From contig CAMKEI010000017.1 in NCBI GenBank assembly GCA_946411525.1, forward strand, positions 1-40,083: DNA of 40,083 bases, in the 5' to 3' direction. The position numbers were made by a program, and so were the translations under genes. This DNA comes from an uncultured Clostridia bacterium (lineage in GTDB: Bacteria > Bacillota > Clostridia > Christensenellales > Aristaeellaceae). Below the pieces are notes generated by a model. That model was not told where the DNA came from. It saw only the letters and a program-made list of their open reading frames with translations, and made no database searches. Shown in pieces: positions 3,606 to 25,815 of this stretch. The stretch's first letter is position 1, and the number at the start of each line of letters is the position of its first letter.

Positions 3606-3620
3606 GAACAGGGAAGCAAA

Positions 3621-17744: not shown

Positions 17745-17865
17745 TCTGTTCAGCAACAGCTCGCTGCCTCTCTCTTCAGGCGGCTTTTAGATAGATGATT
17801 TGTTTCGTATCCTTGGTTTTCAGACAAAGGATGCTGTTTGTTCTGCCGTGGAGGTGTACGTCTTC

Positions 17866-18795
17866 GTGGAGCGAAATCTGTTGATTACCCATTATTATCA
17901 CAGCGGTTTTTCCGTCGCGAGCGAACATACGCTGGCTGTCTTCGACTACTGGCGCGGGGAACGCGGGGAACTGACCCCTGATAAACAGCTCACGCCTGAC
18001 CAGCTGAAAAAATACGACAATGTCTTCGTCTTTATCAGCCATGAACATATCGATCATCTCGATCCTGTCGTCTTCTCCTGGAATGAAACAGGAAATGTTT
18101 CCTATATCGTTTCTTCCGACATGCCCGTCGGTACGCGTGGCAAGCGCATGGCTCCGGGAGATACAATTAAGTTCTCGGATGAGCTGACAGTGACTGCCTT
18201 TGACTCAACGGATCTCGGGGTCAGTTTTCTGGCCGACTTCTGCGGTATCCGTATTTTCCACGCCGGAGACCTGAATTTCTGGCACTGGCGGGAAGAATCC
18301 ACCATGCAGGAAATCGAAGAGGCGGATGCGGAATACCGCAAAGCGGTCCAGCCGATCTCAAAGGAAAAGATCGACGTGGCGTTCTTTCCGGTGGATCCGC
18401 GGCAGGGAACAATGTATGAAGCAGGGGCCAATTATTTCATCCTGGCCGTCAAACCGCGGATCCTGATTCCGATGCATTATTTCCATCGGACGGATACGGC
18501 TGTGGATTACGCCCGCACAGCCAGCTGCCGCACCACAGAGGTGATCGCCCTCCCCGGTTACGGCGACCGGCTGCAGATTCGGATGGACGAGGATCTTTAT
18601 CTGAATGTATCCTTCCCCTCCATAGATACTCCGGAGAATGGGGAGGCCGAAGAGACCGGATCAGTCTCCGGTGAAGGATCTGGGCTTCCCCCGGACGAAG
18701 GGGAAACGATGCTGTCAGAAGACGATCCGTTCCTCGAAAGCGATCTCCCTGTTTCCTCCCTGGCGGATGACGAGCCTGCCGCTCCTGAAACATAA
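17866..18795 (+). CDS. Metallo-beta-lactamase-fold hydrolase with acidic C-terminal tail
   Basis: I choose the GTG at 17866 because GGAGGTG (17850-17856) lies 9 bases ahead and the protein then opens as MERNLLITHYYHSGFSV, typical of small MBL-fold hydrolases. An in-frame TTG at 17800 lacks a site. The 309-residue protein carries HEHIDH at 59-64 (the HxHxDH zinc motif), then HAGD and IPMHYFH as further metal-binding positions. The core ends near residue 250. It is followed by about 58 residues rich in Glu, Asp, Ser and Pro with no predicted structure, unusual for the family. The substrate is unknown. The gene is monocistronic, convergent with addA, with a shared terminator and DnaA boxes starting 2 bases after its stop. 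Confidence 0.8.
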   Translation: MERNLLITHYYHSGFSVASEHTLAVFDYWRGERGELTPDKQLTPDQLKKYDNVFVFISHEHIDHLDPVVFSWNETGNVSYIVSSDMPVGTRGKRMAPGDTIKFSDELTVTAFDSTDLGVSFLADFCGIRIFHAGDLNFWHWREESTMQEIEEADAEYRKAVQPISKEKIDVAFFPVDPRQGTMYEAGANYFILAVKPRILIPMHYFHRTDTAVDYARTASCRTTEVIALPGYGDRLQIRMDEDLYLNVSFPSIDTPENGEAEETGSVSGEGSGLPPDEGETMLSEDDPFLESDLPVSSLADDEPAAPET

Positions 18796-18796
18796 T

Positions 18797-18952
18797 CCAT
18801 CCACAGGCAGGCTTAATTTCCACAGGTTATCCACAGTTTTTCACCTGATTCGCAAAGAAGAAGCCGACCCGCGCAAGCGTTGAATTATCTTGCTTTCGCG
18901 GATCGGCTTTCTGTAAATACCGAAATCTCAAGGCCTCACAGGCTGTGGATAA
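18797..18952. other. DnaA-box cluster at the addA/MBL convergent gap
   Basis: Perfect DnaA boxes TTATCCACA lie at 18827-18835 (plus) and 18952-18944 (minus). Weaker 7/9 matches lie at 18797-18805 and 18816-18824. Further boxes continue into the 3' end of addA: a perfect one at 19092-19100, 8/9 matches at 19785-19793 and 19851-19859, and 7/9 matches at 19774-19782 and 19930-19922. This density near dnaN, recF and a parS site suggests an origin part or a DnaA-titration site. No obvious AT-rich unwinding element is seen beside it. Confidence 0.6.
18859..18911. terminator. Bidirectional terminator between MBL gene and addA
   Basis: GAAGCCGACCCGCG pairs with CGCGGATCGGCTTT (one mismatch and one G-T), with an inner CAAG/CTTG, between convergent genes. 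A and T runs flank the outer stem. Confidence 0.7.
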
Positions 18953-19051
18953 TCTGTTTGTTGTTCTGGTCACAATTCTGACCATGCCCGGCACCTGTTT
19001 CAGCCCTTCCGCCCTTGTTCCGTATGGGGAAATCCGCTCCTATTGATCTGA

Positions 19052-22000
19052 TCAGTTTTTGCCCTGAAAAGGACTGTCAACCCGGACAGCTTTATCCACA
19101 GACAGTGCATAAAGCCAGCTTTCCGTAACCGGCCTCCCGGTCAGCTCCCGCAGCGCTGCGGCATACCATTCCAGCTGGGGACGGTATTCCTCCACAAAAG
19201 CCCCCATATCCCGGATCCTGTCGGTCTTATAGTCCAGCAGAATCCAGCCGTCTCCTTCCCGGAAGGCACAGTCGATCATACCTTGCAGAATCATTCCCCG
19301 ATCCTTCAGATACAGGTTGAAATCCCACTCTCGATGCACCTCCGGACTGTGCAGCATCCGCTGCCCGATATCCGAGGCAAAAAACCGTGCCGCTGCCTCC
19401 GGTCGGATCCATTCTCCTTCCTCCGGTGTGAATACCTGCTCCTCCACCATGCTGTCCCGCATGGCGGCCAGTGTATTCACATCCTCGCCGCCGCTCCGGA
19501 CAGTATCCAGATCCGCCAGTGAGAGGAAACGGTGAATGACCGTACCCCGGGCAGCCCCGTCCGCTTCCTTTGCCGGGATCATGAAAACCGGCAGGCTGCC
19601 TGCCTGATACCGCTTCATCGCACGTTCCACATAGTCCGGTGTCCGCTTTTCTTCCGGAGTCTGTTCCGCCTCTTCCGGGAATATCCGGTTACGCGCATTC
19701 CGAAGCAGGGCGGTCACGGATATTTTTTTCAGGGTGTTCTCCGTCTGTTCCGGTTTATTTTCCGTTGAAACAGTCTTCCACAGATCATCCACAGAAGGCG
19801 CGGAAAGCACGGTTTCAACCCATGGCTGCAGGTTGTGAATTGTATTCCGGTTTTCCACAGTTTTCTGTTGAATACTATCAAAGATCGTTATTTTCCAAGG
19901 CCTTGAAGCCTGTGTAAAGGTTGTGGATTTCTTTTCTTCATCCAGCAGTGCAGGCATCACACAATCCATGTAATCTGAAGCAGCAAGCGTCCGGTGATCA
20001 CCCGGCGGCATATGCCAGATCGCGCGGTCTGTTTCCGTTCCCACGAGAAACAGTTTTTCCTGTGCCCGGGTCACCGCCACATACAGCAGACAGATCCGTT
20101 CTGCTTTTACGTCATGGTTCTTCTTCCACTCGAAAATCTCATCCGCCGCAGTGCTGCGTGACAGACGCCATTCCGGCACTTTGTAACGCAGGCAGAGTCC
20201 CAGTTCCTCATCCAGCCGGACCGGTCCGCCCGGTTTTCCCTTCAGGCCTTTATCCAGATCCAGGCAGAATACCACCGGGAACTGCAGTCCTTTGGACTTA
20301 TGCATCGTCATAATCCGGACCAGATCATCCTCGCTTCCCAGGGACGACGCTGCCTGCATCTCTCCGCCGGAAGCCTGTTCCGACAGGAAATCCAGGAATT
20401 CACAGAGAACACATATCCCCCGATCCGCAGCACGATCCGCCTGCAGGCAGACCGCACGCAGGTTCTTTTGCGCGGCGTTTCCGTCATCCTTCGCCCCGAA
20501 AAAAGAGGAGATCGCGCTGTCTTCCAGCAGATACCAGAGAAAATCCGCAAGATGTACCCGTACGGACTGAAATCGCCATTCTTCAATCCGATTCTTTGCC
20601 TGCCTGCATTTCTGTCCAAGCGGGCTGTTTTCATCAGCAGCCGAATCGAACGCCTGCCAGAAGGGAACGCCGGTACCCGTGTTTTTCAGGCGGATCAGGC
20701 TCAATTCCTCTTCAGTAAAGAAAAAGGGCGGATTGACCAGCGTCGTCAGCAGCGGCAGATCCAGGTGGGGGTTGTCCAGCAGCATCAGCAGGTTTCGGAA
20801 GGCTTCCACTTCCGGCTGATCGAAGAATCCGCCCCTGCCATCAAAGAATACCGGAATACCCTGAGCTTTCAGCAGTTCCGTAAGCTTTGGACCGTCCGTG
20901 CTGACTTCCGGCATCAGGATGACAATATCCCTGTATTTGTACCTCTCCTGCTCAACCAGTTCACGGATTCTCCCGGCGGTATGTGCAGCAATCGTTTCCA
21001 GCCGGGTCATACCTTCTCCGGTTTGCAGCAGATCCACATTCACGGGGACATATCCAGGGCAGTCCGTTCGTCCCTGTTTCAGTTCGTCTGCTGGAGTATA
21101 GTCGATCTCCGCCGCTTCCTGTCGCATTACATCCCGAAAAATCGTATTGGCAGTTTCCAGGATTTCCGGTCGGGAACGAAAGTTTTCCTGCAGGAAAATA
21201 CACTCTCCCGCGTCCGGTCCTTCTGCTCCGATCCTTGCCTGGAACAGCTTTGGATTTGCCAGGCGGAACCGGTAAATACTCTGTTTCACATCTCCCACCA
21301 TGAACAGGGTGTTTTCTTCCCCGGCCAGCGCCTGGATCAGGGCGTCCTGTACAGAAGACACATCCTGACATTCATCCACAAAGATCCGCTGATACCGGCT
21401 GCGTACGGAAGTACGGCAATTCTCATTGCCGAGGATTGCCAGCGCCTTGTGTTCGAGGTCGGTAAAGTCCAGCGCGCAAACACGCGCCTTATTCTTTTCA
21501 TATGCAATGTGCGTTTCTTCCGTGATTTTTCTCAGGCCGCGCAGGCTGTTTCGGATCTGTGTGAATTCCTTCATCGTCTGCGCCTGATCAGCTCCGATCC
21601 ACACAAGGATGCTCCCAGCGACTTCCTTCAGCTGTTTCCGCAGTGCCTGATACCGATCCCGCCAATCGGCTTCCCGGACTGTCAGATTACGCAGAGCCGG
21701 AAGCCTGGCAAAATCACCCGTCAGCTCTTCCGGTTGAACCGCCTCATTGACCATCCAGCGCCGCAGGGCGTCCGCGAGCGCCTGATCCTTTTTCCAGGTC
21801 TCCCGGTAGGCGTCCTGTTTCTCATATTCTTCAAACATATCCGCCTGCCGCCGCAGGATGACCTGCATCGTCAGGATTTTCTCGTTCATCATCCGTGAAA
21901 CTGTCCTGAACCAGGGATGATCCCGGTTCAGATCCAACGGCACGCTCTCCGACTTCGCTGCAAGCCACTCAAACGGCTCCGGAAGGCTCATAATAAATCG

Positions 22001-22501
22001 CCAGACTTCAGAAACGATGTTCAGGACACCTGCCGGTTCATACTGGCGGATAAAAGACAGATAATCCGGATCTTCCCGGTTCCGCAGTTCGTTGCACGCC
22101 TGGCGGAACGCGTCGGCAAAAAGCTGCTCCCGCTGGGCTCCGGTACAGATCTGGAAAAACGGATCCACCCCTGCAATCTGGAATTCCTGACGGATCAGGT
22201 GCTGACAGAAAGCATGAATTGTACAGATCTCCATCGCTCCTGCTTTTTCGGCGGCTGCCGCGATTGCAGGATCCTTCCGCTCCGATAACAGTCGATTGCG
22301 TATTTTTTCCCTCATTTCCGCGGCCGCCGCGTTTGTAAATGTGATCACCAAAAAGGAAAAAGGATCCGCCCCTTCCCGAATCAGACGGGCGATCCGTTCA
22401 ATCATTACAGCGGTTTTCCCGCTGCCGGCGGCCGCGGAACAGATAAGCCTTCCCGCGGAGGAATCTATGACTTTCTGCTGGTCATTCGTCCATTGCGGCA
22501 T
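19052..22501 (-). CDS. addA: ATP-dependent helicase/nuclease subunit A (AddA)
   Basis: AddA is the helicase-nuclease subunit of the Firmicute AddAB double-strand-break resection complex. The start is the ATG at 22501 (MPQWTNDQQ), with AAGGAGA about 8 bases upstream; the frame runs on to 22621 but crosses the parS site. The protein has 1149 residues, slightly shorter than B. subtilis AddA (about 1230). Walker A AAAGSGKT is at 23-30. The UvrD-type motifs include VDECQDVSSVQ, GDVKQSIYRFR and TMHKSKGLQFPVVF, and LLYVAVTRAQEKL precedes the end. The C-terminal RecB-type nuclease motif LLDYKTD is at about 1088-1094. addB, usually adjacent, is not in the window. The gene follows dnaN-recF on the same strand, across 131 bases that carry parS. 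Confidence 0.93.
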   Translation of the reverse strand: MPQWTNDQQKVIDSSAGRLICSAAAGSGKTAVMIERIARLIREGADPFSFLVITFTNAAAAEMREKIRNRLLSERKDPAIAAAAEKAGAMEICTIHAFCQHLIRQEFQIAGVDPFFQICTGAQREQLFADAFRQACNELRNREDPDYLSFIRQYEPAGVLNIVSEVWRFIMSLPEPFEWLAAKSESVPLDLNRDHPWFRTVSRMMNEKILTMQVILRRQADMFEEYEKQDAYRETWKKDQALADALRRWMVNEAVQPEELTGDFARLPALRNLTVREADWRDRYQALRKQLKEVAGSILVWIGADQAQTMKEFTQIRNSLRGLRKITEETHIAYEKNKARVCALDFTDLEHKALAILGNENCRTSVRSRYQRIFVDECQDVSSVQDALIQALAGEENTLFMVGDVKQSIYRFRLANPKLFQARIGAEGPDAGECIFLQENFRSRPEILETANTIFRDVMRQEAAEIDYTPADELKQGRTDCPGYVPVNVDLLQTGEGMTRLETIAAHTAGRIRELVEQERYKYRDIVILMPEVSTDGPKLTELLKAQGIPVFFDGRGGFFDQPEVEAFRNLLMLLDNPHLDLPLLTTLVNPPFFFTEEELSLIRLKNTGTGVPFWQAFDSAADENSPLGQKCRQAKNRIEEWRFQSVRVHLADFLWYLLEDSAISSFFGAKDDGNAAQKNLRAVCLQADRAADRGICVLCEFLDFLSEQASGGEMQAASSLGSEDDLVRIMTMHKSKGLQFPVVFCLDLDKGLKGKPGGPVRLDEELGLCLRYKVPEWRLSRSTAADEIFEWKKNHDVKAERICLLYVAVTRAQEKLFLVGTETDRAIWHMPPGDHRTLAASDYMDCVMPALLDEEKKSTTFTQASRPWKITIFDSIQQKTVENRNTIHNLQPWVETVLSAPSVDDLWKTVSTENKPEQTENTLKKISVTALLRNARNRIFPEEAEQTPEEKRTPDYVERAMKRYQAGSLPVFMIPAKEADGAARGTVIHRFLSLADLDTVRSGGEDVNTLAAMRDSMVEEQVFTPEEGEWIRPEAAARFFASDIGQRMLHSPEVHREWDFNLYLKDRGMILQGMIDCAFREGDGWILLDYKTDRIRDMGAFVEEYRPQLEWYAAALRELTGRPVTESWLYALSVDKAVRVDSPFQGKN

Positions 22502-22528
22502 AAGGGATTCTCCTTGTTTCTTCAGAAA

Positions 22529-22544
22529 TGTTTCACGTGAAACA
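22529..22544. other. parS centromere-like site
   Basis: TGTTTCACGTGAAACA matches the bacterial parS consensus at all 16 positions. It sits inside a perfect 26-bp palindrome (22524-22549) in the recF-addA gap. ParB (Spo0J) binds such sites, which cluster around the replication origin. parA and parB are not in the window. Confidence 0.92.
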
Positions 22545-22632
22545 TTTCTAAATTTCTTTATTCTTTGCCCAGAATACTGCAATCTGATTGGACAGTTGTT
22601 TTTGGTTCCCATCCTGAGCAATGTCCGGAATC

Positions 22633-23748
22633 CTATCTGTTTTCATCCACATATGCTTCTCCTGCCTCAGCGGATACTTTCCAGATCTTCTGCACTTTCC
22701 CGCAATCCACATCATCCCGGTCGGTGCAGGTGATAAATGTTTGGAAATCCCGGATTTCTCTGATCAGGCAGGCCCGGCGTTTCCGGTCAAGCTCACTCAT
22801 AACGTCATCCAGCAGGAGTACCGGTTCTTCCCCGCTCAAATCCCGCAAAATCTTCATCTGGGACAATTTCATGCTCAGCGCGGCTGTCCGGATCTGTCCC
22901 TGGCTGGCAAATTGCTTCATCTGGTTTTTATTCATTGTCAGGATCAGGTCATCCCGGTGAGGTCCTACGGACGTCAGTCCCATCCTGATATCGTCTTCCC
23001 GGTTTTCCCGGTATAGCCTGCGCAGCGTCTCAGCGATATCGTCATCTTCCTTTACCGAGGAATGATAAGCAACACAAAACATTTCGTCTGTATCGGAAAT
23101 CCGCTGGTAGGTCTCTGCCGCAATATCTGACAGAAATGAGACGATCTTACGCCGTTCCCGGATGATAACTGCTGCAGGTTCCGCCATGGTATCCTCAAAA
23201 GCAGTCAGAATTGCCGGACTCCCGGTCCCGTTTGTCCGAAGATTCCGCAGCGCAGCGTTGCGCTGGTCCATGCCTGTCCTGTACTGCTGCAGCGCGACAA
23301 AGTACCCGCGGCTGATCTGGCTGATCATCATATCCAGATACCTTCTGCGAATTGAAGGTCCGTCTTTGATGAGCCCGAGATCCTCCGGTGAAAAAATCAC
23401 ACAGCGAAGGCATCCCATCATATCGGAAAATTTTGCGATTTTTTTCTGATCAATCTGAATCGTTTTTTTCTGGATTTCCTCCGGATGAAACCGTACGCTT
23501 ATCTCCCGCCGGCCTAGCAAATTCTGAATGGAAACAGAAGTAAAAGCAAACGCTTCTCCGTTTTTTACCACATTGGCGTCATTGGTAATCCGGTGGGAAC
23601 GGCCGAGCGAACAATAATGAACCGCTTCGAGCAGGTTCGTCTTGCCGGATCCGTTTCGGCCGTAAAAGAGGTTAACGCCAGGGTGCGGACAGAGCGTAAG
23701 CTCCCGGTAATTCCTGAAGTTTTTCAGTTTCAGTTCTTCAATCTGCAT
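22633..23748 (-). CDS. recF: DNA replication and repair protein RecF
   Basis: RecF is an SMC-like ATPase that, with RecO and RecR, loads RecA at single-strand gaps. The protein has 371 residues, the usual length. The N-terminus reads MQIEELKLKNFRNY with Walker A GRNGSGKT at 30-37. The ABC signature region lies near QFASQGQIRTAALSMKL, and Walker B is VLLLDDVMSELD near the C-terminus. It follows dnaN by 69 bases on the same strand, as in the classic dnaA-dnaN-recF-gyrB order. Here addA takes the next place and no gyrB follows. Confidence 0.96.
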   Translation of the reverse strand: MQIEELKLKNFRNYRELTLCPHPGVNLFYGRNGSGKTNLLEAVHYCSLGRSHRITNDANVVKNGEAFAFTSVSIQNLLGRREISVRFHPEEIQKKTIQIDQKKIAKFSDMMGCLRCVIFSPEDLGLIKDGPSIRRRYLDMMISQISRGYFVALQQYRTGMDQRNAALRNLRTNGTGSPAILTAFEDTMAEPAAVIIRERRKIVSFLSDIAAETYQRISDTDEMFCVAYHSSVKEDDDIAETLRRLYRENREDDIRMGLTSVGPHRDDLILTMNKNQMKQFASQGQIRTAALSMKLSQMKILRDLSGEEPVLLLDDVMSELDRKRRACLIREIRDFQTFITCTDRDDVDCGKVQKIWKVSAEAGEAYVDENR

Positions 23749-23817: not shown

Positions 23818-24933
23818 TCATTGGAAGACCCGGACCGGAAGAATCAGGTATAGATAATCATTTCCTGTCTGCGGCACAACCACACACGGGCTGACGCTGG
23901 AATTGAACTTCATGCACAGTTCCTCGTCCGGTACATTGCGGATCACATCTGTGATATACCGTGCGTTGAAAGCTATATCGATCGGATCACCGTTCAGTGA
24001 AGCTTCCATCTCTTCCTCCACATCGCCCAGTTCAGCGTTTGAGGAAATCCTGAGAATATCGTTTTTAAAACTCATTTTTATCAGGTTGTTCTTTCCTTCC
24101 CTTGCCATCAGGCTTGCACGGTCGATGGCATCCTGAACGCTGCTTTTCTGTGCCAGTGCTTCAGTCCTGAAATCTGACGGCAGAATCCGCCGGTAATCAA
24201 TATACTCTCCCGCCAGCAGAACGCTGGAAAGACGGATATTTCCAAAAGTACACTGCATTCTTCCCTTGTCTATCAGCAGAGAACAGAAAGCGTCGTCATC
24301 CGGCAGGATTTTTGTCAGTTCGTTCAGCACCTTTCCGGGAATCACAGCGCTTACCATATCCACACCGGAGGGCAGTTCAAATGGCTGAAAAAGCTTGTAC
24401 ATCGCAAGACGGAAACCGTCCAGTGCAACCAGACGCGCTTCGCTGCGGTTAACTTCCAGCAGACTGCCTGTCAGGATCTGGCGGCTTTCATCCGTCGCAA
24501 TTGCAAAAACGACATGGGAAATCATCTCTTTCAGCTTATTCTGCTGAATTTTGACCTTTGATCCGCTCTTCATCGGATTGATCTCCGGATACTCCGCCGG
24601 GTTCATTACTGCCAGTGAACTCCGGTTTTTCATGCACCGGATTGTTGCAGAACGGTGGTCCTGTTCTGTGATTGTAACTGTTCCTGCAGGCATTTTGCGG
24701 ATCATCTCGGCAAAGATTCTGCCCGGCAGTACCGTCTGGCCTTCCTCCTGTACGGAAGCGGCATTGGTATACTCGATTGTCATGGATCCGTCAGAGCAGG
24801 TCATCAGGATACGGTTTTCCTCAGCGGAAATCAGAACGCCTTCCAGAATCTGCTTGGCTGGACGGGAGGACAGTGCCCGTGTGACGATATTCAGTCCTTC
24901 GAGCAGGTCCTGGGAATTCATGGATAGGATCAT
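23818..24933 (-). CDS. dnaN: DNA polymerase III beta subunit (sliding clamp)
   Basis: DnaN dimerises into the ring that tethers DNA polymerase III to DNA. The protein has 371 residues and three repeats of the clamp fold. Typical segments are the start MILSMNSQDLLEGLNIVTRALSS, LPGRIFAEMIRKMP, the second-domain VVFAIATDESRQILTGSLLEV, and the C-terminal YLYLILPVRV. The ATG has AGAGGT 9 bases upstream. It is the first gene of a dnaN-recF(-addA) run with its own promoter at 24999-25027. dnaA, normally directly upstream, is replaced by pgsA-rimO across a 348-base gap with DnaA-like boxes. Confidence 0.97.
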   Translation of the reverse strand: MILSMNSQDLLEGLNIVTRALSSRPAKQILEGVLISAEENRILMTCSDGSMTIEYTNAASVQEEGQTVLPGRIFAEMIRKMPAGTVTITEQDHRSATIRCMKNRSSLAVMNPAEYPEINPMKSGSKVKIQQNKLKEMISHVVFAIATDESRQILTGSLLEVNRSEARLVALDGFRLAMYKLFQPFELPSGVDMVSAVIPGKVLNELTKILPDDDAFCSLLIDKGRMQCTFGNIRLSSVLLAGEYIDYRRILPSDFRTEALAQKSSVQDAIDRASLMAREGKNNLIKMSFKNDILRISSNAELGDVEEEMEASLNGDPIDIAFNARYITDVIRNVPDEELCMKFNSSVSPCVVVPQTGNDYLYLILPVRVFQ

Positions 24934-24998
24934 TTCGGTTCAACCTCTTTCATCGAAAACGCGGATGATCTGATAAATATTAGATCAAAGTCGTTGTC

Positions 24999-25027
24999 GT
25001 AATAGACCTTGTGAAAATGGTGGACAA
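24999..25027 (-). promoter_or_regulatory. dnaN promoter
   Basis: On the minus strand TTGTCC (25027-25022), a 17-base spacer and TATTAC (25004-24999). The leader to the ATG at 24933 is about 60 bases. Confidence 0.5.
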
Positions 25028-25281
25028 CACGGAAAACGGCAGGAAAAACGTTATTTCCGCTGTGGAAAGTTTGTGAATATAATCGCCTGCAATGAACAGG
25101 ATTCCTGTTATTATTCCATATCGGCAGGGATAAATCCTTCTTTTGGCAGGAATGGCCGTAAACAGGAAAAAGGAAAAATGAATCTGCTGCGGAAAGCAGT
25201 CCTGAAAGAAGATAAAGCATCCACAGTTTTCAATCAATTCACAGGATTGTGGAAAAACTCCTGTTGAAGACAGGAATACCG
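25028..25281. other. dnaN upstream region with DnaA-like boxes
   Basis: No gene is seen. DnaA-like boxes are TGTGGAAAG (25061-25069, 7/9), GCATCCACA (25217-25225, 7/9) and TGTGGAAAA (25248-25256, 8/9). AT-rich tracts lie at 25069-25083 and 25176-25192. This is the position where many bacteria have oriC between dnaA and dnaN, but the boxes are weaker than those at 18827-19100. Confidence 0.4.
25253..25275 (-). terminator. Terminator of rimO-pgsA
   Basis: TCCTGT/ACAGGA with a 5-base loop is followed on the minus strand by GTTTTT, 7 bases past the pgsA stop. It overlaps a DnaA-like box. Confidence 0.65.
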
Positions 25282-25815
25282 TTATTTTTCTGAGAGCACA
25301 GATGCATTCCGTACAAAATAATCCACACCGGAAATCAGAGTCAGCGCGATAACAGCTGCTGCGAGAACAGTGAACGGCCATGCTTCGAATACCCCGAGAT
25401 TCAGAATCAGAATTGCGCTGATCAGTATCATCTGGCAGGCAGTTTTCCATTTGCCGAGCGGACCTGCGGCAATGACCTGTCCCTTGGTTACGGCGACCAT
25501 CCGTAGACCGTCCACGGCCAGTTCCCGGCAAAGAATGACAATGACGATCCAGGCGGGCATTTTACCAGAATAAACCAGCATGATCAGTGTTGTAAGCACC
25601 AGAAGTTTATCTGCCACGGGATCAATGAATTTGCCGAAGTCCGTGACAAGATTGCGTTTACGTGCAATACGTCCATCCAGAAAATCAGTCAGGCAGCCAA
25701 TGATAAACAGCACGGCCGCGGCGATCCGGCAGGCGGACGCCGGAAAATGCAGCAATATCACAATGGCAGGTATGCACAGTACCCGGGCTACGCTCAGTTT
25801 ATTGGGCAGATTCAC
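25282..25815 (-). CDS. pgsA: CDP-diacylglycerol--glycerol-3-phosphate 3-phosphatidyltransferase
   Basis: This membrane enzyme makes phosphatidylglycerophosphate, the committed step to phosphatidylglycerol and cardiolipin. The protein has 177 residues, normal for PgsA. The CDP-alcohol phosphotransferase motif is complete and perfectly spaced: D47-G48, A51-R52, G61, D65 and D69. Several hydrophobic helices surround it (about 8-42, 75-90, 120-165). The ATG overlaps the end of rimO by 4 bases, so the two are translationally coupled. Confidence 0.93.
   Translation of the reverse strand: MNLPNKLSVARVLCIPAIVILLHFPASACRIAAAVLFIIGCLTDFLDGRIARKRNLVTDFGKFIDPVADKLLVLTTLIMLVYSGKMPAWIVIVILCRELAVDGLRMVAVTKGQVIAAGPLGKWKTACQMILISAILILNLGVFEAWPFTVLAAAVIALTLISGVDYFVRNASVLSEK

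Follow-up and report, generated by a model that had tools for sequence, protein, structure and literature searches.

DnaA-box arrays downstream of a likely dnaN-side replication origin in a branch of Clostridia with a relocated dnaA

We analysed a 40,083-nt stretch of DNA (the window) from an uncultured Clostridia bacterium of the family Aristaeellaceae, asking where the replication origin lies relative to a dense cluster of DnaA boxes at 18.8–19.9 kb. The window is the whole of contig C17 of an assembly of 113 contigs and 2.45 Mb that is 85% complete. Among its DnaN relatives with named records, the 19 nearest all come from uncultured Clostridia or Clostridiales, and many of these from the ruminant gut. 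The minus strand carries the gene order rimO-pgsA-dnaN-recF-addA, with polA divergent on one flank and a metallo-β-lactamase (MBL)-fold gene convergent with addA on the other. The genes that frame the argument are as follows.

17800–18795, plus strand: MBL-fold hydrolase gene, convergent with addA; box array III lies at its 3′ end
19052–22621, minus strand: addA (helicase-nuclease); box array II lies between the UvrD_C and PD-(D/E)XK domains
22633–23748, minus strand: recF
23818–24933, minus strand: dnaN
25282–25815, minus strand: pgsA, upstream neighbour of dnaN; dnaA occupies this place in relatives in which the two genes are linked

An initial annotation had proposed that the cluster might be an origin detached from dnaA, with a DnaA titration site as the main alternative. 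The five boxes it named were recovered at the same positions and on the same strands.

18827–18835, plus strand: perfect DnaA box, array III (addA/MBL intergenic)
18944–18952, minus strand: perfect DnaA box, array III (addA/MBL intergenic)
19092–19100, plus strand: perfect DnaA box within the final addA codons, also present in the near relatives L004, L005, L007, L008 and G132
19785–19793, plus strand: 8/9 DnaA box, array II, addA linker
19851–19859, plus strand: 8/9 DnaA box, array II, addA linker

The several 7/9 boxes that had also been reported correspond to nine sites with two mismatches between 18797 and 19930, and an exact parS is indeed present at 22529. Of the three perfect boxes, only 18827 and 18944 are intergenic, as 19092 falls within addA. 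Overall, the window contains 21 boxes with at most one mismatch, compared with 5.45 ± 2.31 in shuffled sequence. Perfect TTATCCACA boxes occur only 12 times in the 2.45-Mb genome assembly, and three of these 12 lie inside 274 bp of the window. As this arrangement did not occur once in 200,000 random placements (analytic value about 8e-6), the triple is not explained by chance. The sole other pair of perfect boxes less than 500 bp apart in the genome assembly (C63:3623 and 3699) is located upstream of dnaA.

The suspected relocation of dnaA was borne out: the gene is absent from the window and lies upstream of pheS and pheT on contig C63. In three near-complete relatives, the distance between dnaA and dnaN amounts to 1.21 Mb (G091), 1.28 Mb (G132) and 46 kb (G025); in G091 and G132, dnaA lies inside an arm. 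A survey of the family, counted by eye, found both genes in 125 of 150 genomes. They adjoin each other in 38 of the 125 (three of these with two gene copies), share a contig at a distance of 37 kb to 1.28 Mb in five, and reside on separate contigs in 82, which alone is no proof of separation. In a DnaN tree of 46 loci, a single branch (93/87; 94% of 200 bootstraps) parts all 13 linked rows from all 33 others; among the loci studied in detail, the doubles L032, L034, L036 and L038 were left uncounted and L023–L025 were excluded as distant. L006, L008, L017 and L022 appear to duplicate G066, G112, G026 and G149, respectively. From the general bacterial pattern, we infer that dnaA–dnaN linkage is ancestral and that dnaA departed once. 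In three genomes, G025 (L030/L031), G065 and G090, a single contig carries both genes with only 37–46 kb between them, which may represent an early stage of relocation. In the tree, G025 clusters with G116 and the two stand at the margin of the unlinked side.

To locate the origin, GC skew was sampled in G091, G132 and G025 (22 stretches of 20 kb each, at most about an eighth of the chromosome). At the stretch holding dnaN, its sign changes from minus to plus in each of the three, in agreement with the earlier proposal that this neighbourhood is origin-proximal. The pattern is clean in G025 (positive from 120 kb to 2.12 Mb, negative from 2.32 to 3.92 Mb). In G132, every stretch sampled from 0.92 to 2.46 Mb is negative and every one from 2.66 Mb onwards is positive; those at coordinates below 0.92 Mb, which presumably lie beyond the terminus, comprise four positive stretches and a negative one (0.2 Mb). 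G091 exhibits discordant positive values before dnaN at 20 kb, 0.53 Mb (near zero) and 1.01 Mb, and a discordant negative value after it at 2.75 Mb. Gene strand bias was noisy and was left unused. At fine scale, the cumulative-skew minimum of the stretch analysed around dnaN is less than 2.3 kb away from the start of this gene in each of the four sequences (window, +294 bp, corresponding to about 24.64 kb; G091, −2292 bp; G132, +81 bp; G025, +1297 bp). An origin on the dnaA side was rejected, as dnaA is situated within the negative run in G132 and on a mostly negative arm in G091 (neighbouring stretches −0.066 and +0.005). A skew minimum beside dnaA, which had been named as evidence against an origin in this neighbourhood, was thus not seen in the sampled relatives, although skew cannot separate dnaA from dnaN in G025 because only 46 kb lies between them.

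Base composition and motif content point to the region between dnaN and pgsA as the likely origin, about 6 kb from the box cluster.

24934–25281, minus strand: proposed oriC, dnaN–pgsA intergenic region, G+C 0.405, overlapping the lowest-GC 400-bp stretch of the window
24991–25027, minus strand: module resembling a basal unwinding system, with two degenerate DnaA boxes, a spacer, five trio-like triplets and AT-rich DNA after them
25248–25256, minus strand: 8/9 DnaA box of proximal array I, pgsA side
25319–25327, plus strand: 8/9 DnaA box of proximal array I, 3′ end of pgsA

The lowest-GC 400 bp of the 40-kb window thus coincide with the dnaN–pgsA intergenic region. The earlier statement that no AT-rich element is visible holds for the cluster itself, but an AT-rich, box-bearing region does exist outside it, at 24.93–25.28 kb. 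Basal unwinding systems have been described as a box or tandem boxes followed by a spacer peaking at 10–13 bp and repeated 3′-GAT-5′ trios (PMC8287927). In an alignment of 23 dnaN-upstream regions, the interval about 100–40 bp ahead of dnaN shows a box pair, a spacer and triplets, with AT-rich DNA behind them; the spacer is mostly 13 nt long and contains the second degenerate box. In the window, the triplets on the dnaN strand read CTA TTA CGA CAA CGA. A relaxed pattern for the triplets, a [CT]N[AG] array beginning with CT, detected the module in 20 of the 23 regions (missing in L008, L011 and L017), compared with a mean of 0.015 and a maximum of 1 in 200 rounds of shuffling, a chance value that is flattering because the pattern was picked after the alignment had been viewed. 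Elsewhere in the same loci the module is sporadic (seven further matches in six loci). It is found at the distal array in only one of 23 loci (L015) and not in the window, and between dnaA and dnaN in six of 13 linked relatives. Members of the clade carry array I between about −400 and −90 relative to dnaN. The array I of the window is weak, with 8/9 and 7/9 boxes and no perfect one.

These data also bear on the proposal that the cluster at 18.8–19.9 kb is itself the unwinding origin. It does hold the densest perfect boxes of the genome and is located in the origin neighbourhood. However, its G+C content is 0.534 (18797–19930), the unwinding module is present at the distal array in just the one locus mentioned, and the skew minima lie near the start of dnaN instead of 5 to 6 kb downstream. 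On these three grounds the proposal was rejected as very improbable. The cluster is probably not the start site of replication, and a titration-type site fits it better than an origin does.

We then considered how the boxes downstream of dnaN are distributed among relatives. In the clade of the window, array II is located about +4.9 to +5.3 kb from dnaN, within the addA linker, and array III about +5.7 to +6.3 kb from it, at the addA/MBL junction around a terminator-like hairpin (by eye). In L011 and G024, whose MBL gene is inverted, array III likewise adjoins the 3′ end of that gene, here at +8.1 to +8.5 kb, and the distance between dnaN and the arrays ranges from 2.4 to 8.5 kb. A distal array was defined as a group of three or more boxes within 350 bp, located between +1.5 and +9 kb, and loci reaching +9 kb were counted; the unlinked loci L006, L020 and G044 and the linked loci G045, G098 and G042 fell short of this and were uncounted. 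By this definition, 25 of 30 unlinked loci and 0 of 10 linked loci possess a distal array, the linked loci holding at most one box in the interval. Taken together, the sequences support an origin region at dnaN, a relocated dnaA, and two conserved distal box arrays about 5–6 kb downstream. As to the neighbouring gene, MBL is encoded on the dnaN strand in L011, L013, G024 and G064 and on the opposite strand in most relatives and in the window itself. Array III was observed at the MBL 3′ end in L011, L013, L021 and G024, and none was seen in G064.

Two further elements accompany the arrays.

22529–22544, no strand assigned: exact parS
19886–19900, minus strand: accessory dyad CCTTGnAAAATAAGG with one mismatch, beside array II

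Of the 24 clade loci, 23 have an exact parS just behind recF, between +2.2 and +2.5 kb relative to dnaN. A second exact parS inside addA, at about +3.0 to +3.2 kb, occurs in 11 of the 24 (L009–L012, L014, L015, L017–L019, L022 and G091). The CCTTGnAAAATAAGG dyad is found next to boxes in 20 of 24 loci. With up to three mismatches allowed, array DNA totalling 12.1 kb contains 38 matches, whereas the 60 matches in 800 kb of sampled background would predict 0.91; this enrichment is partly circular because the motif was derived from the same arrays. Near dnaA, the similar sequence CTTGAAA resembles the −35 element of the dnaA promoter (by eye), and the motif may thus carry several meanings.

Since array II is embedded in a coding sequence, the boxes might be a by-product of conserved protein motifs, with the intergenic ones arising by chance. 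Synonymous codons were therefore permuted within each of 20 near-origin addA genes (1000 rounds; the doubles L129, L131 and L132 excluded). Pooled, these genes contain 99 boxes compared with 26.3 ± 4.5 after permutation (maximum 43), although they are not independent, as they include the near copies L018/L019 and L006/L007. The linker, taken as 0.735–0.87 of the frame and chosen after the boxes were known, contains 72 boxes compared with 14.8 ± 3.3 (maximum 25). The addA gene of the window alone has five boxes against 1.81 (P = 0.016). Codon permutation did not find the linker excess in more distant addA copies of four genomes. The addA of G084 (L127), with six boxes against 0.90 expected, was grouped with the five distant genes although it lies at most 9.4 kb from dnaN.

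Additional evidence came from three loci (L013, L016 and L021) in which addA is missing behind recF and is found elsewhere in the same genomes. Their recF–MBL stretches align to array II, with stops in all three forward frames. Unmasked, the matches extend over 158 nt at 76% (L016–L018, E 1e-27), 162 nt at 70% (L013–L014, E 3e-11) and 157 nt at 68% (L021–L014, E 4e-9). In the L016–L018 pair, 51 of 54 positions are identical in boxes and 69 of 104 outside. With boxes masked, nothing significant was found over the array among the eight best matches per relic, so the homology rests on the unmasked matches and on the 69/104 non-box identities. The addA copies examined from elsewhere in these genomes are 31–33% identical to that of the window and carry 0, 0 and 4 scattered one-mismatch boxes with no linker array; the genome of L021 (G152) has two divergent addA genes, on C6 and C10, and none behind recF, and one of these copies was examined. 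Supported branches of the DnaN tree part L016 from L013 and L021, and L021 from L013, which makes repeated loss or replacement of addA probable. An alternative order of events would be that addA grew into a pre-existing array. The sequences support the view that array II is retained as DNA, beyond its protein. A protein by-product would suit the weak single-gene linker tests (P 0.037–0.163 for the window and the six relatives closest to it) and the insignificance of the masked relics. The pooled permutation, the frame-broken relics and the missing linker excess in distant addA genes speak against it, and we rejected this explanation as hardly credible.

The same loci inform a third possibility, namely that the boxes are sites of DnaA-controlled transcription of addA, the MBL gene or neighbours. 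Boxes flank the presumed dnaA promoter in the clade (by eye), and DnaA may well regulate genes here. However, both arrays occupy 3′ positions, array II in the last third of addA and array III at the end of the MBL gene, and they persist without addA. Moreover, array III of the window is flanked by two 3′ ends, those of addA and MBL, which makes promoter control unlikely. We thus regard this explanation as improbable.

The findings are best explained by the assumption that arrays II and III form an origin-proximal DnaA reservoir or inactivation site, while unwinding would take place between dnaN and pgsA (probability roughly 0.57). Unwinding would begin in this intergenic region, with DnaA loading from the box pair onto the strand of triplets next to the AT-rich DNA. 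Arrays II and III would be replicated very soon after firing, and could then bind or inactivate free DnaA and limit re-initiation; next to the origin and copied early, they would be suited to restraining a second round. The variable distance from dnaN also fits a reservoir better than a fixed geometry. The arrays may have gained this role when dnaA left the origin. They are conserved and probably help to control the timing of initiation.

The proposed arrangement shares features with several known systems. As in a B. subtilis-type oriC, the site lies directly upstream of dnaN and combines a box, a spacer, triplets and an AT-rich flank; in contrast, dnaA is not adjacent here, and the triplets are degenerate in most loci, the window included. 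In Synechococcus elongatus, too, dnaA lies away from oriC. Both oriC and the skew shift are near dnaN in that species (PMC7198777), and the oriC of E. coli is likewise separate from dnaA (PMC8287927). Compared with these detached-dnaA origins, the present case concerns Clostridia and one branch within a family, and comprises distal arrays in addition. The closest analogues of arrays II and III are datA and the DnaA-box clusters (DBCs) of B. subtilis, where several boxes, predicted here to be of high affinity, likewise stand outside the unwinding site. According to a review, deletion of datA results in over-initiation in E. coli and joint removal of six B. subtilis DBCs in early initiation (PMC5295017). 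Unlike these systems, one of the present arrays resides within a protein-coding gene and has outlived it, the arrays lie 2.4–8.5 kb from the dnaN start, and the element next to the boxes is the CCTTGnAAAATAAGG dyad, whereas datA carries an IHF site there. Caution regarding the in-gene array II is warranted by a DnaA site within rplB of B. subtilis: binding to it was seen in vitro but could not be detected in vivo, and transcription is among the reasons that its authors put forward (PMC4447404).

Several observations weigh against the reservoir with a dnaN-side origin. Under the published strict rule, which demands at least three triplets with a middle A next to the box, only seven of 23 loci pass upstream of dnaN, L011 included. 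The window fails, and two of its five triplets have the middle base required. Given 20/23 by the relaxed and 7/23 by the strict pattern, the putative unwinding module is best called homologous by position, with degeneration in many species. The skew comes from samples of relatives, including some discordant stretches, and not from the fragmented genome itself. Array II of the window is weak, with two 8/9 boxes, and the window linker alone has two boxes against 0.71 (P = 0.118). Furthermore, no distal array was found in five of the 30 unlinked loci (G081, G014, G094, G136 and G057), and its absence from linked genomes, which depends on a single split of the tree, is inseparable from clade history. 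Finally, the same review assigns the B. subtilis DBCs no significant role, which weakens that analogy (PMC5295017).

Arrays II and III could instead belong to a split oriC, bipartite or tripartite, as its distal half: DnaA bound to them would touch DnaA at the dnaN–pgsA site through a loop of 2.4–8.5 kb and would be needed for initiation. The oriC of Helicobacter pylori is bipartite, and the bipartite oriC of B. subtilis similarly has gene-separated box arrays with the unwinding module in one only. Here, however, dnaN, recF and usually addA intervene instead of dnaA, and the spacing is larger. In linked relatives, boxes upstream of dnaA would play the part of the distal half: of 13 such relatives, eight have clusters both there and between dnaA and dnaN, three upstream only and two between only. 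The confinement of distal arrays to the unlinked side of the DnaN tree and their persistence where addA is gone are also in line with a split origin. On the other hand, the pgsA-side boxes at about −400 to −290 could be the former partner, now fused, the dnaN–array distance is unconstrained, and a distal array is missing from five of the 30 unlinked loci. The B. subtilis clusters are moreover separated by dnaA alone (PMC5295017). We consider a split oriC the main rival reading, possible though unlikely. An extended version holds that, after dnaA left, a new distant DnaA-binding half-origin arose beyond dnaN, partly in the coding sequence of a repair gene and under its own selection (shaping the AddA linker and surviving gene loss in three genomes), and forms a split origin with the dnaN–pgsA region. 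This version is somewhat more doubtful still. To our knowledge, no bipartite origin is that wide.

Detached dnaA genes and box clusters outside origins are already known. Our literature search found nothing on the origin of this lineage or on DnaA boxes in addA, and no report of an array of initiator sites that is embedded in a gene and outlives it, which is not proof of absence. The family offers a natural experiment in origin rewiring after departure of the initiator gene, in one branch and with both states alive. Selection keeps initiator sites within a coding gene and after its loss, adding comparative evidence that origin-proximal DnaA-box arrays matter beyond model organisms. The window also serves as a warning that box density alone may mislead by about 6 kb from the likely unwinding site.

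Two minor observations concern other contigs of the same genome. Upstream of the relocated dnaA, three DnaA boxes, two of them perfect, lie at 3608–3707 of C63 (L003), one before and two after a sigma-70-like promoter (by eye), and similar boxes occur in the seven members of the genus that were aligned; this looks like autoregulation of dnaA. On C59 (L002), a 321-aa frame at 1441–2406 on the minus strand gives a second match to the Bac_DnaA domain (35.7 bits) and resembles, by eye only, a helicase loader of the DnaC/DnaI type.

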